Source: Herbidospora daliensis
GTDB lineage: Bacteria > Actinomycetota > Actinomycetes > Streptosporangiales > Streptosporangiaceae
Reading direction: 5' to 3'
NCBI RefSeq assembly: GCF_001570585.1
Contig: NZ_BBXF01000005.1
Span: forward strand, 186,001-250,000
Length of the DNA stretch: 64,000 bases
Every line of letters starts with the position of its first letter. Position 1 is the stretch's first letter. The notes beneath the pieces were generated by a model. That model did not search any database and had not been told where the DNA came from. It saw only the letters and a program-made list of their open reading frames with translations. This document shows positions 3,882-49,425 of the stretch, piece by piece. The translations under genes and the position numbers were made by a program.

Positions 3882-5042
3882 GTGCCGCGCCTGAGAGACG
3901 TGCCGTTGTGGCTGGTGTTGTGTGTTCCGGTGGTGTTCGCGCCGGTCAACCCCTATGACTGGCGGCCGCAGTCGGGGAACGTGCTGGTGGTGTCGGTGGT
4001 GGCCGGCTGCCTGGTGATCGCGGGGGCGGTGGCGCTGGCGCGGGCGCGTCCGGTGGCGGCGCTGGTGGTGGTGCTGCTGACGGGGCCGTGGGCCTCCAGT
4101 GAGGCGCTGGCGACGGTGCAGTTGTGGCCGATGAACCACTCGGCGAAGATCGGGCCGATCAACGGGTTCACGCCGGCGGTGATGACGTTGAGTTTCCTGG
4201 CGGGGATGCGGATGGAGCGGGCCCGGCCGGCGGTGTGGCTGTATGGGGTGATCGTCGTGGTGGGCGGGGTGTGCGCGGCGGTCTCGACGCTGGGGCCGGT
4301 GCCGTCGGCGGAGCCGAACGTGTGGGTGTCGGGGCTGTCGGGAGTGCTGATCTGCAGTCTGCTGCCGTGGACGGCCGGGCGCAGCGTGCGCCATCGCCGT
4401 CAGGGGCGGCTGCGGGAGCGGCTGATGGTGGAGGAGCAGGCGCGGCTGCGGGAGCGGGCGCGGATCGCCCAGGACGTCCACGACTCTTTGGGGCACGAGC
4501 TGGCGTTGATCGCGTTGCGGGCGGGCGCGATGGAGATGGCGGCCGATCTGCCGGCCCGGCACCGGGAGGCGGCGGCCGGGTTGCGGGAGGCGGCCGGGGA
4601 CGCGACGGAGCGGCTGCGGCGGGTGATCGGGATGTTGCGGGCGCAGGACGAACCGGCGACGCTGCTCCCCCACGCGCGGGCGGGCGGCATCGCCGATCTG
4701 GTGGCGCGGGCGCGCGCGTCGGGCATGACGGTGCGGCTGGACGGCGACCTGGCGGGCGCCGATCCGCTGGGGGCGGTCTACCGGGTGGTGCAGGAGGGGC
4801 TGACGAACGCGGCCAAGCACGCGCCGGGCGCGCCGGTCACGGTGGCGCTGGAGCGGCGGGAGGGGCGGGTGACGGTGAGGGTGGGCAACGACGTGGAGCC
4901 GGGCGCGGAGGCGGGCCGGCCGGGCACGGGCCTGGTCGGGTTGTCGGAGCGGGTGCGGCTGGCGGGCGGCACGTTCGCGGCGCGGGTGGAGGAGGGCCGG
5001 TTCGAGATCAGCGCCGGCCTGCCCGACGAGGTCCCGTCATGA
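3882..5042 (+). CDS. Two-component sensor histidine kinase (HisKA_3/NarL partner type)
   Basis: 386 aa membrane kinase with four to five N-terminal transmembrane segments to about residue 165, then a cytoplasmic linker, a HisKA_3 dimerisation helix with the phospho-acceptor H200 in RIAQDVHDSLGHE, and an HATPase domain (N-box EGLTNAAKHA, G-box GTGLVGLSERV). GTG start; TAGCGT lies 6 nt before it, so the mRNA is probably leaderless. It overlaps the response-regulator start by ATGA, so the pair is co-translated. There is no obvious extracytoplasmic sensor domain, suggesting an intramembrane signal, perhaps the neighbouring exporter or membrane state. Confidence 0.93.
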   Translation: MPRLRDVPLWLVLCVPVVFAPVNPYDWRPQSGNVLVVSVVAGCLVIAGAVALARARPVAALVVVLLTGPWASSEALATVQLWPMNHSAKIGPINGFTPAVMTLSFLAGMRMERARPAVWLYGVIVVVGGVCAAVSTLGPVPSAEPNVWVSGLSGVLICSLLPWTAGRSVRHRRQGRLRERLMVEEQARLRERARIAQDVHDSLGHELALIALRAGAMEMAADLPARHREAAAGLREAAGDATERLRRVIGMLRAQDEPATLLPHARAGGIADLVARARASGMTVRLDGDLAGADPLGAVYRVVQEGLTNAAKHAPGAPVTVALERREGRVTVRVGNDVEPGAEAGRPGTGLVGLSERVRLAGGTFAARVEEGRFEISAGLPDEVPS

Positions 5043-5698
5043 TCAAGGTGGTGCTGGCCGACGACGAGATGCTGATCCGGGCCGGGGTGCGGGCGATCCT
5101 GGACGCCGATCCGGGCATCGACGTCGTCGCCGAGGCCGGGGATGGGCGCGAGGCGGTGGAGCGCACGCTGGCGCACCGGCCCGACGTGGTCGTGATGGAC
5201 ATCCGGATGCCGGTCCTGGACGGGCTGGCGGCCGCCGCCGAGATCCGCCGCGCCTGCCCGGCGACGGGGGTGGTGATGCTGACGACGTTCGGGGAGGACG
5301 AGTACATCGCGCGGGCGCTGAAGGTCGGCGCGGGCGGTTTCCTGCTGAAGTCGGGCGATCCGCGCGAGCTGCTGGCCGGCATTCACGCCGTGGCGGGCGG
5401 GGCGGCGTATCTGTCGCCGAAGGTGGCCGCCCGGGTGATCGCCGAGCTGAACAACCGCGACTCGGGGCGGGCGGCGGCGGCGCGGGGCCGGGTGGCGGTG
5501 CTGACCCCGCGTGAACGCGAGGTGCTGGAGCTGGTGGGGGCGGGGTTGTCGAACCAGGCGATCGCCCGGTCGCTGCGGCTGACCGAGGGGACCGTGAAGA
5601 CGTACGTGAGCGCGATCTTGACCCGGCTGGGGGTGGCCAACCGGGTCCAGGCGGCGATCGTCGCCTACGAGGCGGGCGCGGTCACGCGGGGAGACTGA
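5039..5698 (+). CDS. NarL/LuxR family response regulator
   Basis: 219 aa. The receiver domain has acidic residues D8/D9, the phosphorylation site D54 (VVVMDIRMP) and the conserved Lys in FLLKSGDP. The C-terminal LuxR-type helix-turn-helix is at about 154-212 (LTPREREVLELVGAGLSN, then EGTVKTYVS). ATGA overlap with the kinase; the last 17 bp overlap the convergent DUF952 gene. Targets unknown. Confidence 0.95.
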   Translation: MIKVVLADDEMLIRAGVRAILDADPGIDVVAEAGDGREAVERTLAHRPDVVVMDIRMPVLDGLAAAAEIRRACPATGVVMLTTFGEDEYIARALKVGAGGFLLKSGDPRELLAGIHAVAGGAAYLSPKVAARVIAELNNRDSGRAAAARGRVAVLTPREREVLELVGAGLSNQAIARSLRLTEGTVKTYVSAILTRLGVANRVQAAIVAYEAGAVTRGD

Positions 5699-34770: not shown

Positions 34771-34803
34771 AGTCACGACACCTCACCCGCTACCGTCATG
34801 ATC

Positions 34804-35535
34804 GTGACCAAGCTCAACCAGATCCTGGCCGTCGAGAAAGGCGTCAAGGCCGACGTCCAGCGCAAGGTGGCGGACGCCAACACGCTGATCCAGAAGGCGC
34901 CGCTGCTGTCCGGCATCTCCCGCACCTACCAGCCGATCGACGACGAGGGCGAGCAGCTGCCGCCCGAGTCGACGCGCGTGCAGGTGCAGGCCGAGCAGGT
35001 GCTGCGCGACGTCACGGTCACCCTGACCCGGCTGTTCGACGTGACCGCCACCAAGGACGTCGCCAACTGCGCCGCCAAGGCCGACGTCGTCGTCGACGGC
35101 GCGACCCTGGTGCGCGACGTGCCGGTGACGTACCTGCTGTTCCTGGAGAAGCAGCTCACCGACCTGCACGCGCTCATCTCCCGGCTGCCCACGCTCGACC
35201 CGTCGGAGACGTGGTCGCTCGACGGCAACACCGACACCTGGCGCACCGAGCCGGTCCGCACCACCCGGACCAAGAAGGTGCCGCGCAACCACGTGCTCGC
35301 CGAGGCCACCGAGAAGCACCCGGCGCAGGTGCAGGTGTTCACCGAGGATGTCGTCGTCGGCTACTGGACGCGCGTCGCCTTCTCCGGCGCGCTGCCGCAG
35401 CGGCGCGTCAACGAGCTGCTGACCCGGCTGACCAAGCTCCAGGAGGCGGTCAAGTTCGCCCGCGAGGAGGCCAACGGCACCGAGATCACCGACCAGCGGA
35501 TCGGTGAGGCGCTGTTCGGTTACCTGCTCGGGTGA
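34804..35535 (+). CDS. Uncharacterised protein upstream of tRNA-like RNAs
   Basis: 243 aa from GTG 34804, which has TACCGT exactly 7 nt upstream; an ATG at 34798 is the alternative but leaves only 1 nt. Soluble and mixed alpha/beta, with a helical N-terminus (KLNQILAVEKGVKADVQRK), a basic stretch RTTRTKKVPRNH near 155 and a conserved-looking FTEDVVVGYWTRVAFSG. It resembles a widespread family of actinobacterial hypothetical proteins, but I cannot name it with certainty. No TROVE, vWA, RtcB or nuclease motif is visible. It is 39 nt upstream of the first tRNA-like RNA on the same strand; an RNA-binding role is inference. Confidence 0.8.
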   Translation: MTKLNQILAVEKGVKADVQRKVADANTLIQKAPLLSGISRTYQPIDDEGEQLPPESTRVQVQAEQVLRDVTVTLTRLFDVTATKDVANCAAKADVVVDGATLVRDVPVTYLLFLEKQLTDLHALISRLPTLDPSETWSLDGNTDTWRTEPVRTTRTKKVPRNHVLAEATEKHPAQVQVFTEDVVVGYWTRVAFSGALPQRRVNELLTRLTKLQEAVKFAREEANGTEITDQRIGEALFGYLLG

Positions 35536-35574
35536 CCCCACAGACCCCCGCCCGCAAGGGATGGGGAGCGCGAT

Positions 35575-35703
35575 GAGCGCAAGCTGAAACTGAAGCATCA
35601 CGACTGAACGACGGTGACAGCGCAGGTTCGACTCCTGCCCCCCGCATCCACGCGGGGGTGGCCCAATCGGTAGAGGCAGCCGTTCAAACTCAGGCTCTCG
35701 CTC
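35575..35703 (+). ncRNA. Circularly permuted tRNA-like RNA 1
   Basis: Order along the DNA: anticodon 3' strand ACGGT (35611-35615), variable GACAGC, T-arm GCAGG-TTCGACT-CCTGC (35622-35638), acceptor 3' strand CCCCCGC (35639-35645), 6-nt loop ATCCAC, acceptor 5' strand GCGGGGG (35652-35658), T-G, D-arm GCC-CAATCGGTAGA-GGC (35661-35677) with the invariant GG, then anticodon 5' strand GCCGT (35679-35683). The acceptor pairs at 7/7, the anticodon stem at 5/5 with one wobble. Outside, TTCA/TGAA, TCAG/CTGA and CGCTC/GAGCG pair to make a long imperfect stem from 35575 to 35703. Topology like the tRNA-mimic module of YrlA Y RNAs. Confidence 0.75.
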
Positions 35704-35720
35704 CAGACTCAGCATTGCCG

Positions 35721-35740
35721 CCGGTCGCCGGAGCGACCGG
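35721..35740 (+). other. Perfect hairpin between the two tRNA-like RNAs
   Basis: CCGGTCGC / GCGACCGG, 8-bp stem with a CGGA tetraloop. It separates the two elements; it may be part of the stem region of RNA 2 or a processing/terminator hairpin. No T-run follows. Confidence 0.6.
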
Positions 35741-35844
35741 TCGCGGACGAAAGTCGTCAGGTTGGGGGTTCGAATCCCACCGGGTGCTCTCCTTGCGCCC
35801 GTAGCTCAACGGAAGAGCGGACGACATGACCGTGATCCGCGGCC
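35739..35844 (+). ncRNA. Circularly permuted tRNA-like RNA 2
   Basis: Anticodon 3' strand TCGTC (35754-35758), 5-nt variable loop AGGTT, T-arm GGGGG-TTCGAAT-CCCAC (35764-35780, one mismatch), acceptor 3' strand CGGGTGC (35781-35787), 7-nt loop TCTCCTT, acceptor 5' strand GCGCCCG (35795-35801), T-A, D-arm GCTC-AACGGAA-GAGC (35804-35818), G, anticodon 5' strand GACGA (35820-35824). Acceptor 7/7 with one G-U; D-stem 4/4; anticodon stem 5/5. Outside, GGTCGCGGA (35739-35747) pairs with TCCGCGGCC (35836-35844). GACGAAAG at 35746-35753 matches the Y-RNA Ro-site pattern GNCGAAN(0-1)G as I recall it. Confidence 0.75.
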
Positions 35845-35880
35845 TTCAAAGGCTCCGGCGCCGCGATGTGGCGGCGTAAC

Positions 35881-35913
35881 GGCCCCCGGGATTCAGGGTA
35901 TTTCCTGGGGGCC
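35881..35913. terminator. Hairpin at the convergent 3' ends
   Basis: GGCCCCC (35881-35887) and GGGGGCC (35907-35913) form a 7-bp stem between the tRNA-like RNAs and the end of the MarR gene. Without a T-run on either side, it is only a possible bidirectional terminator. Confidence 0.35.
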
Positions 35914-36378
35914 ACCGCCGTTTCCGAGGTGCTCCCGCAGCGCTGCTGCGAGCTCGCCCGCCGCGGTGACCTGCGCCGGGGTGAGCCCGTCGACGAACAG
36001 TTCGCGGATGGCGCGCAGGTGCGGCACGGTCGCCCCGTGGAAGGCCGCGGCGCCCTCCTCGGTCAGCACCGCCTCCGCGCCCCGGTTGTCGCCGGTGCAG
36101 TTCTCCCGCCTGATCAGCCCCCGTTTGTCCATGCGCCCGAGGTGGTGAGACAACCGGCTGCGTTCCCAGCCGATCGTCGCGGCCAGCTCCGAGGAGCGCA
36201 GCCGCCCGTGCTCGGCCTCGCTCAACGCCAGCAGGACGCTGTAATCGCCCGTCGACAACCCCGACTCGCTCTGCAGCCGGGCGGCCATCGCGGCCCGCAG
36301 CGCGTCGGTGGTCTCGATGAAGTCCCGCCAGATCCGCAGCTCCTCCCGGGTGGGGAACCGGCCTCTACGCTGCGTCAA
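35893..36378 (-). CDS. MarR family transcriptional regulator
   Basis: 161 aa from a TTG at 36378, chosen because GGAGG precedes it by 8 nt; the longer frame to 36417 would run through the operator. Winged helix at about 60-105 (RLRSSELAATIGWERSRLSHHLGRMDKRGLIRRE). Divergent from the luciferase-like operon it probably represses. Confidence 0.88.
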   Translation of the reverse strand: MTQRRGRFPTREELRIWRDFIETTDALRAAMAARLQSESGLSTGDYSVLLALSEAEHGRLRSSELAATIGWERSRLSHHLGRMDKRGLIRRENCTGDNRGAEAVLTEEGAAAFHGATVPHLRAIRELFVDGLTPAQVTAAGELAAALREHLGNGGGPQEIP

Positions 36379-36404
36379 CGTGCTCTCCTCCCATCGGGAA
36401 TATA

Positions 36405-36434
36405 ATTGACACGTCAATCATTTCCGATCATATG
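36405..36434 (+). promoter_or_regulatory. MarR operator and promoter of the LLM operon
   Basis: ATTGAC-AC-GTCAAT (36405-36418) is a perfect palindrome of MarR type. Its TTGACA (36406-36411) is also a good -35, followed after 17 nt by CATATG (36429-36434) as -10. Repressor binding would mask the -35. The predicted start near 36441 excludes the ATG at 36432 and supports 36450 as the first codon. Confidence 0.65.
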
Positions 36435-48750: not shown

Positions 48751-49425
48751 GAAGGCATGGGCAGAGCAGCGAACGCGGGCTACTGAATTCGAGCTGGTGT
48801 ATCTGAGCGCCAAGGGCCGCTGGTTCACTGCTGGAGCGCCCGTTTCGAGAACGCGCCGCCCTGACGAACGTTCTCCTCACACCAAGGGCAGCGCAACTTC
48901 CCGGGGCTGTGGTGGTCTGCCACGACCGGCGAACACGTGGGATTCGAATCATGGTTGGAACCCGATCAGGCGATGACGCTTGACTTCTCCCCTCGAGTGA
49001 TCGGGTTCTCCTGCCAGCCGTTCCGGCTCCTCTGGTCGGAGGACGGCACGCCGCGGAAGCACGCACCCGACTTCTTCGCGCGACTGGACGATGCAACAGG
49101 CCTCGTCATTGACGTCCGGGCAGATGACCGCATAGAGCCCACCGACGCCAAAGCGTTCTCGGTGACCGCAGCGGCATGTGAGGCGGTGGGATGGGCCTCC
49201 AAACGGGCGGGCGCACTGGATCCAGTGCTGGCTGCCAATGTCCGCTGGTTAGCGGGCTATCGCCATCCTCGCTGCGACAACCACGACTACGGAGCCCGGT
49301 TGCGGCAGGTGTTCATGATTCCGACTCCGCTGCTGGACGGTGCCAACGCTGTCGGCGATCCCGTAGCAGTTCTGCCAGTGCTGTTTCACCAACTGCGGCC
49401 GGGGATTTTGTGTTCGCTGAGCTAG
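48751..49425 (+). pseudogene. TnsA-like transposase endonuclease, degraded
   Basis: An N-terminal piece (TEFELVYLSAKGRWFTAGAPV, about 48787-48850) is followed in another frame by the body, open from 48865: GQRNFPGLWWSATTGEHVGFESWLEPD, HAPDFFARLDDATGLVIDVRADDRIEP and GAVGDPVAVLPVLFH-like end. This is the actinobacterial TnsA-like endonuclease of heteromeric transposases. The nuclease triad region (E in FESWLE, D in HAPDFF, V-D-V-R) is intact, but there is an in-frame TGA (48862) and no TnsB/TnsC gene beside it. Remnant. Confidence 0.65.

Follow-up and report, generated by a model that had tools for sequence, protein, structure and literature searches.

Among the described systems, the closest to the locus reported here is the bacterial Y RNA YrlA (RF02553), which goes with Ro60/Rsr and in which, as in our RNA, the Rfam alignment places a permuted tRNA-like module on top of a stem, which stands where the anticodon loop would be. 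The primary paper on the permuted YrlA module is reportedly that of Chen in 2014. RNAs of the YrlA kind are expected to bind Ro60 and PNPase and to undergo modification by TruB and Dus. Bacterial Y RNAs are mostly discussed as partners of Ro60, and the passage of one report that lists yrlA in some mycobacteria leaves Ro60 unmentioned (PMC9569102). The tRNA-like domain of YrlA is reported to bind PNPase and the basal stem to hold Rsr, with the module docking on PNPase and on tRNA-modifying enzymes (PMC8394870). It has also been suggested that YrlA might compete for an anticodon nuclease (PMC7790460), and YrlA-type RNAs are reported from phages too (PMC12282133, PMC7765460). The RNA described here, which lies beside a gene of the Pfam family DUF7873, differs from YrlA in having another partner gene and other linkers; its basal stem, too, seems to be different for the most part.

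Two-piece tmRNA likewise has permuted tRNA halves, and its intervening piece is removed, by a processing thought to involve RNase P and tRNase Z (PMC3985003). In contrast, the DUF7873 RNA has a complete D-arm, two modules and a DUF7873 neighbor, and no tmRNA was called. The permuted tRNA genes of algae and archaea show the same reversal of halves (PMC3978253), but the DUF7873 RNA lacks an anticodon loop, and its outer flanks pair with each other into a long stem that is conserved. Phage ROT/TROVE proteins with a tRNA-like partner, discussed in connection with tRNA provision and RNA repair, again combine a phage-borne protein with a tRNA-like RNA (PMC7824862); there the protein family is a different one, and TROVE was detected in 1 of 13 DUF7873 phage records. 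Since a module of this kind is known from YrlA, the permutation as such is not new. A literature search found neither the term DUF7873 nor a description of a Y-RNA-like RNA family tied to it; a mention in Chen 2014, Burroughs and Aravind 2016, Wang 2018 or Sim 2018/2020 is possible.

RESULTS

Two permuted tRNA-like modules in the window

We scanned both strands of the window, that is, the whole 64-kb stretch of DNA that was analyzed, with a strict permuted-tRNA descriptor and obtained two matches (elements 1 and 2); a third, looser descriptor match lay at 48839-48909. When the window was dinucleotide-shuffled 60 times, the strict descriptor found a mean of 0.017 matches and a maximum of 1, and both elements are far above chance. 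The 3′ half is encoded before the 5′ half in both. In element 1, the acceptor strands CCCCCGC/GCGGGGG pair 7/7 around a 6-nt loop, the anticodon stem ACGGT/GCCGT pairs 5/5, the T-loop is TTCGACT, and the D-loop holds GG. In element 2, the acceptor strands CGGGTGC/GCGCCCG pair 7/7 with one G-U around a 7-nt loop, the anticodon stem TCGTC/GACGA pairs 5/5, the T-loop is TTCGAAT, and GG is again present in the D-loop. The descriptor thus reproduced the permuted order, stems and loops of both elements as they had been claimed from reading the sequence.

ARAGORN, run over the window, called neither element a tRNA and found no tmRNA, and a tmRNA identity was accordingly rejected. The Rfam YrlA model aligned end to end with element 2 (37.4 bits) and element 1 (20.8 bits), both below its gathering score of 69 bits. 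The comparison with YrlA, already drawn in the initial annotation, was therefore the right lead.

Both modules belong to one conserved RNA

The two elements, which had been taken as a tandem pair, are both present but not free-standing: they are modules of a single conserved RNA, some 330 nt long, that adjoins a DUF7873 gene on its 3′ side. This RNA extends from about 35543 to 35913, so that the range of 35575 to 35844 given earlier was slightly narrow. In an alignment of 26 loci (A2, 477 columns), the RNA opens with the 5′ hairpins and continues through a 5′ linker made up of hexamer-like repeats (AAGCTGAAACTGAA...) into module 1 and a highly conserved linker (TCAAACTCAGACTCTCGCTCCAGACTCAGCATT); after these come the basal stem with an internal loop, the upper stem of 9 bp, module 2 and, last, a terminal hairpin. 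The features in the window are as follows.

34798..35535, + strand: DUF7873 gene (245 aa; PF25283, E 8.1e-116), proposed protein partner; adjoins the RNA in most homologous loci
35543..35580, + strand: two short 5′ hairpins (GACCCCC..GGGG, GCGC..GCGC), start of the conserved RNA (A2)
35581..35610, + strand: 5′ linker AAGCTGAAACTGAAGC...GACTGAAC with hexamer-like repeats; several invariant or near-invariant columns in A2
35611..35683, + strand: permuted tRNA-like module 1 (descriptor; YrlA model)
35622-35677 plus anticodon strands, + strand: element 1 as matched by the descriptor
Within module 1, + strand: anticodon 3′ strand 35611-35615; T-arm 35622-35638; acceptor 3′ strand 35639-35645; loop 35646-35651; acceptor 5′ strand 35652-35658; D-arm 35661-35677; anticodon 5′ strand 35679-35683
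35684..35716, + strand: inter-module linker TCAAACTCAGGCTCTCGCTCCAGACTCAGCATT, kept also where module 1 is degenerate
35717..35731, + strand: basal stem of domain 2, 5′ strand; pairs with 35855-35861 and 35869-35875 (helices 1 and 2)
35739..35747, + strand: 9-bp upper stem, 5′ strand GGTCGCGGA; pairs with 35836-35844 (helix 3)
35754..35824, + strand: permuted tRNA-like module 2 (descriptor; YrlA model)
35764-35818 plus anticodon strands, + strand: element 2 as matched by the descriptor
Within module 2, + strand: anticodon 3′ strand 35754-35758; T-arm 35764-35780; acceptor 3′ strand 35781-35787; loop 35788-35794; acceptor 5′ strand 35795-35801; D-arm 35804-35818; anticodon 5′ strand 35820-35824
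35836..35875, + strand: 3′ strands of upper and basal stems with internal loop CTTCAAAG (consensus CTTAAACG) (A2, covariation)
35881..35913, + strand: G+C-rich terminal hairpin GGCCCCCGGGATTCAGGGTATTTCCTGGGGGCC, possible transcription end, without a T-run (sequence, alignment)

The linkers are kept where module 1 is degenerate (L022, L067 and L078), so selection seems to act on them in their own right. A terminator scan demanding a T-run found none at the 3′ end of the RNA, and a promoter scan saw no separate sigma-70-like promoter for it. Elsewhere in the window, we noted a c-di-AMP riboswitch (ydaO/yuaA leader, RF00379; 21690-21889, + strand, 73.1 bits) and two adjacent luciferase-like monooxygenase genes (both PF00296; 36432-38524, + strand), with a MarR regulator (35893-36417) divergent from that pair.

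Covariation of the stems

RNAalifold predicted 66 pairs on the 26-locus alignment, 34 of which had both sides changed in some sequence. When domain 2 was considered by itself (39 pairs in 24 sequences), pairing held in 96.3% of cells and fell to 38 to 48% when partners were slid. Both sides were changed in 148 cells, whereas shuffling predicts 48, and none of 500 shuffles reached 148. Double changes occurred in 5 of the 7 acceptor pairs of module 2 and in 8 of the 9 pairs of the upper stem. Compensatory changes are thus present among the 24 homologues, and the view that these elements are selected structures is borne out.

Anticodon stem pairing was not a selection criterion for the 163 modules compared; it was nonetheless complete (5/5) in 97 of them (59.5%), versus 13.7% with flanks swapped between loci. 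The flanks of this stem continue, with no loop, into a long covarying stem made up of the 9-bp stem and the longer basal stem. A further helix, joining the 5′ linker to the inter-module linker, gained no support: Watson-Crick runs of at least 6 were found in 25.6% of comparisons within viral loci versus 13.8% across them, and in 32.5% within cellular loci versus 43.6% across them. A conserved G3-U70 alanine signal was considered and rejected; it is present in module 2 of the window, but the acceptor stems of the homologues vary.

Of 225 module loops, 71 begin with a base plus CCA directly after the acceptor 3′ strand (1,000 shuffles: mean 8.1, maximum 19), and this encoded CCA and the loop resemble the intervening piece of permuted tmRNA. 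The loops are up to 74 nt long, the longest being perhaps spurious in tRNA arrays, and some long-loop descriptor matches in phage tRNA arrays may bridge neighboring tRNA genes; among 145 modules checked, ARAGORN calls overlapped modules at one locus (L174). The encoded discriminator and CCA, together with the order of the halves, are what would be expected if these were permuted tRNA genes whose transcripts are circularized and then cut into functional tRNAs, an arrangement known from some algae and archaea. Yet the acceptor stems vary freely with compensation, which in our judgment is unexpected for orthologous tRNAs, the anticodon stem leads into the covarying stems instead of a loop, and ARAGORN called neither element of the window a tRNA. 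We consider functional permuted tRNAs highly improbable.

Linkage of the RNA to DUF7873

DUF7873 was found in 14 of 60 relatives and in 7 of 396 genomes sampled across the phylum, the genome of the window being counted in both. The 53 named genome loci include Streptosporangiaceae, Streptomyces, Nocardia, Ktedonobacteria, an Anaerolineae metagenome-assembled genome (MAG) and a Blastopirellula MAG. The family also occurs in 73 of 50,697 phage records, the hosts being Gordonia, Arthrobacter, Rhodococcus, Rhizobium, Vibrio, Klebsiella/Serratia, Pseudanabaena and Microcoleus, and at 265 places in IMG/VR, of which the best 80 were analyzed. Among 14 control genomes, Deinobacterium chartae was the sole carrier of DUF7873 and also the sole carrier of TROVE.

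At the first 14 loci (L011 to L024), a YrlA-like match adjoins DUF7873 in every case, the best ones scoring 30 to 41 bits, below the cutoff. We then used a looser descriptor on 146 loci from actinobacteria, Chloroflexota, a planctomycete and phages (53 cellular, 13 from named phages and the best 80 of the 265 from IMG/VR). A permuted module lay on the strand of the gene and within 800 nt downstream of DUF7873 at 130 of the 146 loci (cellular, 51/53; named phages, 12/13; IMG/VR, 67/80), and two or more modules were found at 74 (29 cellular, 6 named phage and 39 IMG/VR loci); because near-copies are frequent among the loci, the counts lack independence. In bins of 250 nt, 155 descriptor matches fell in the first downstream bin and at most 4 in any upstream bin.

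Most of the 16 loci missed by the descriptor were recovered by reading and with R1, the covariance model described below, several having longer loops or moved positions. The RNA is present despite the miss at L053, L078, L100, L119, L123, L153, L154, L155 and L157, and modules with long loops were recognized by eye only at L172 and L176. Neither the descriptor, reading nor R1 revealed the RNA at L130 and L132, which share the same RNA-side sequence, or at L150; at L177, the sequence left (134 nt) is too short. R1 placed the RNA upstream of DUF7873 in L155 (2774-2937, + strand) and on the opposite strand, 1.2 kb from DUF7873, in L153 (4939-5105, − strand). Gene order is therefore not fixed, which fits a trans-acting RNA. 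A cis-acting element of the DUF7873 mRNA, such as a 3′ stability region or a tRNA-like sensor, would agree with an RNA that usually follows the gene on the same strand, mostly within 250 nt, and that has no visible promoter of its own. The arrangements in L155 and L153 nevertheless speak against it, as does a size of about 330 nt with two modules, which we judge to exceed what such an element needs; a cis role is, in our estimation, very unlikely.

A covariance model of domain 2 identifies the family

We built a covariance model of domain 2 (R1) from 24 sequences, those of the window and of actinobacteria. It matched full-length in 11 of 11 nontraining cellular loci tried (Chloroflexota, Nocardia and Blastopirellula; 59 to 124 bits). 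Among the 13 named phages, 5 had significant full-length matches (E < 1e-9, 43 to 85 bits), and L089 had a partial one. R1 matches near the gene were module-length, insignificant or absent in the other seven (L090 to L095 and L097), where the descriptor found one module in five, two in L090 and none near the gene in L092, which has a module-length R1 match about 2.1 kb downstream. At an E value of ≤1e-9, R1 matched 64 of the 80 IMG/VR loci, 59 of them full-length.

The initial annotation had proposed a covariance search over actinobacterial genomes. Among the 60 relatives, a search at a number of genomes for which the tool applies stricter filters, R1 scored above 90 bits in exactly 14, namely, all 14 DUF7873-positive and none of the 46 DUF7873-negative genomes, each time on the contig with DUF7873. 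Several of the 14 positives are in the training set, and the 46 negatives are therefore the informative part. The remaining R1 matches listed among these relatives scored at most 51.1 bits, and the strongest full-length match away from DUF7873 scored 47 bits (G002).

The RNA occurs without Ro60

In the genome of the window, the Ro60 gene is on another contig (C2) and not beside the DUF7873 RNA. Directly upstream of this Ro60 gene are two YrlA-like modules, tandem as in the DUF7873 RNA (40.8 and 31.4 bits, also below 69). Because the DUF7873-linked and the Ro60-linked modules are both subthreshold, the Rfam cutoff does not separate them, and the module is of the YrlA kind. TROVE/Ro60 was found elsewhere in 16 of 20 DUF7873-positive actinobacterial genomes versus 9 of 16 DUF7873-negative ones, which indicates that the association at the genome level is weak. 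Of 10 further DUF7873 hosts, the Anaerolineae MAG has TROVE, and Ro60 was not detected in the other 9, namely, five Ktedonobacteria, two Streptomyces, a Nocardia and the Blastopirellula MAG. Nor was it detected in 12 of 13 phage records with DUF7873, one being a partial genome, which brings the total without detected Ro60 to 25 of 43 DUF7873 genomes or records when the actinobacterial ones are included.

The internal-loop motif CTTAAACG is present at 59 of the 146 DUF7873 loci (33/53 cellular and 26/93 viral) and was found at none of 144 upstream controls and none of 10 Ro60 loci (those with a module, out of 11 examined). A Ro60-type motif, CGGTTATC, was found at 0 of 146 DUF7873 loci but at only 2 of the 10 Ro60 loci, so that this comparison is weak on the Ro60 side; ATATCCG occurred at 2 of 10 Ro60 loci, 2 of 146 DUF7873 loci and 4 of 144 controls. 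At an E value of ≤1e-3, R1 gave 12 matches in eight Ro60 loci, 9 of which extended little beyond the module (22 to 44 bits), while 3 were full-length and weak (L184, 37 bits; L187, 31 bits; L186, 23 bits).

These data bear on whether the locus makes ordinary Y RNAs that Ro60, supplied from elsewhere, binds in trans, DUF7873 being a neighbor or an accessory. With Ro60 elsewhere in 16 of 20 actinobacterial carriers, its use in trans is conceivable there, and the modules upstream of Ro60 in the genome of the window, as well as the weak full-length R1 matches among some Ro60-linked Y RNAs (23 to 37 bits, up to 47 bits), point the same way. The lack of detectable Ro60 in most of the further hosts and of the phages, the restriction of most R1 matches at Ro60 loci to little more than the module and the absence of CTTAAACG there argue against it, and we regard binding by Ro60 as unlikely.

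Phage loci and tRNA genes

Ordinary tRNAs lie within 3 kb at 10 of 13 phage loci (1 to 20 each), 50 of 80 IMG/VR loci and 13 of 53 cellular loci; these are raw counts without a baseline. In Rhodococcus phage NiceHouse (L087), a band-7-like membrane protein gene (4374-5246) comes just after the DUF7873 RNA and a tRNA. The virus/cell label switches 8 times on the best tree of DUF7873, and supported branches force at least 4 of these switches, which is consistent with exchange between phages and cells; the viral contigs may include proviruses. The nearness of many phage copies to tRNA genes and the patchy distribution of DUF7873 might suggest tRNA gene debris left by a mobile element. The strong covariation and the conservation of the non-tRNA parts across phyla are at odds with that notion, and we give it practically no credence.

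The DUF7873 protein

The DUF7873 protein of the window matched no NCBIfam, PHROGs or PADLOC (defense-system) model, and a search of solved chains with its sequence found nothing significant in PDB (best E value, 0.38). Its AlphaFold2 model is confident and alpha/beta (pLDDT 92.4, pTM 0.76); fold searches of PDB and BFVD returned no matches at an E value of ≤1e-3. Nothing independent therefore marks the protein as RNA-binding. Cascade subunits were rejected as fold relatives (Foldseek E values of 7e-3 or worse, TM about 0.14), and a DIP1984-type identity for the gene was a guess that gained no support. BFVD entry A0A7M1RW91 (179 aa, uncultured phage cr118_1) aligned to the model with a Foldseek probability of 1.00, an E value of 0.017 and an rmsd of 13.8. 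At L024/L025 (G028:C48:60049-60770), DUF7873 is in two overlapping frames, perhaps a frameshift, and the adjoining RNA scores 164.4 bits with R1.

DISCUSSION

Structure, covariation, genetic linkage to DUF7873 and occurrence without Ro60 are established here, and we think it likely that the locus encodes a Y-RNA-like ribonucleoprotein (RNP) with DUF7873 substituted for Ro60. Downstream of the DUF7873 gene, a trans-acting RNA some 330 nt long would be made, and DUF7873 would bind this RNA at the conserved linkers and at the basal stem with the internal loop. One or two tRNA-like modules would offer a T/D elbow and a closed acceptor stem, with no anticodon loop, and might dock on tRNA-binding machinery, as reported for the YrlA module (PMC8394870). 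By analogy with YrlA, in which PNPase sits on the module and Rsr on the basal stem, we infer that DUF7873 may hold the basal part of the RNA while the modules engage a tRNA-binding partner. Such an RNP would probably act on tRNA-handling machinery. In phages, the unit is often near tRNA genes, which suggests that its likeliest role would be in tRNA decay, repair or protection during infection.

With somewhat less assurance, we lean toward a broader reading, in which DUF7873 marks a second, Ro60-independent Y-RNP family common to actinobacteria, Chloroflexota, planctomycetes and phages. Its RNA would carry tandem permuted tRNA mimics, with RNase P perhaps cutting it next to the encoded CCA, and would give phages or hosts a means of controlling the tRNA pool, for example, as a decoy for tRNA-cleaving defense nucleases or as a scaffold for tRNA repair.

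If the DUF7873 RNP is what we propose, many relatives with another partner gene would make the permuted tRNA mimic a reusable module for different proteins. It would also provide a testable function for the Pfam family DUF7873 and would point to an RNA-based action of phages on tRNA biology.
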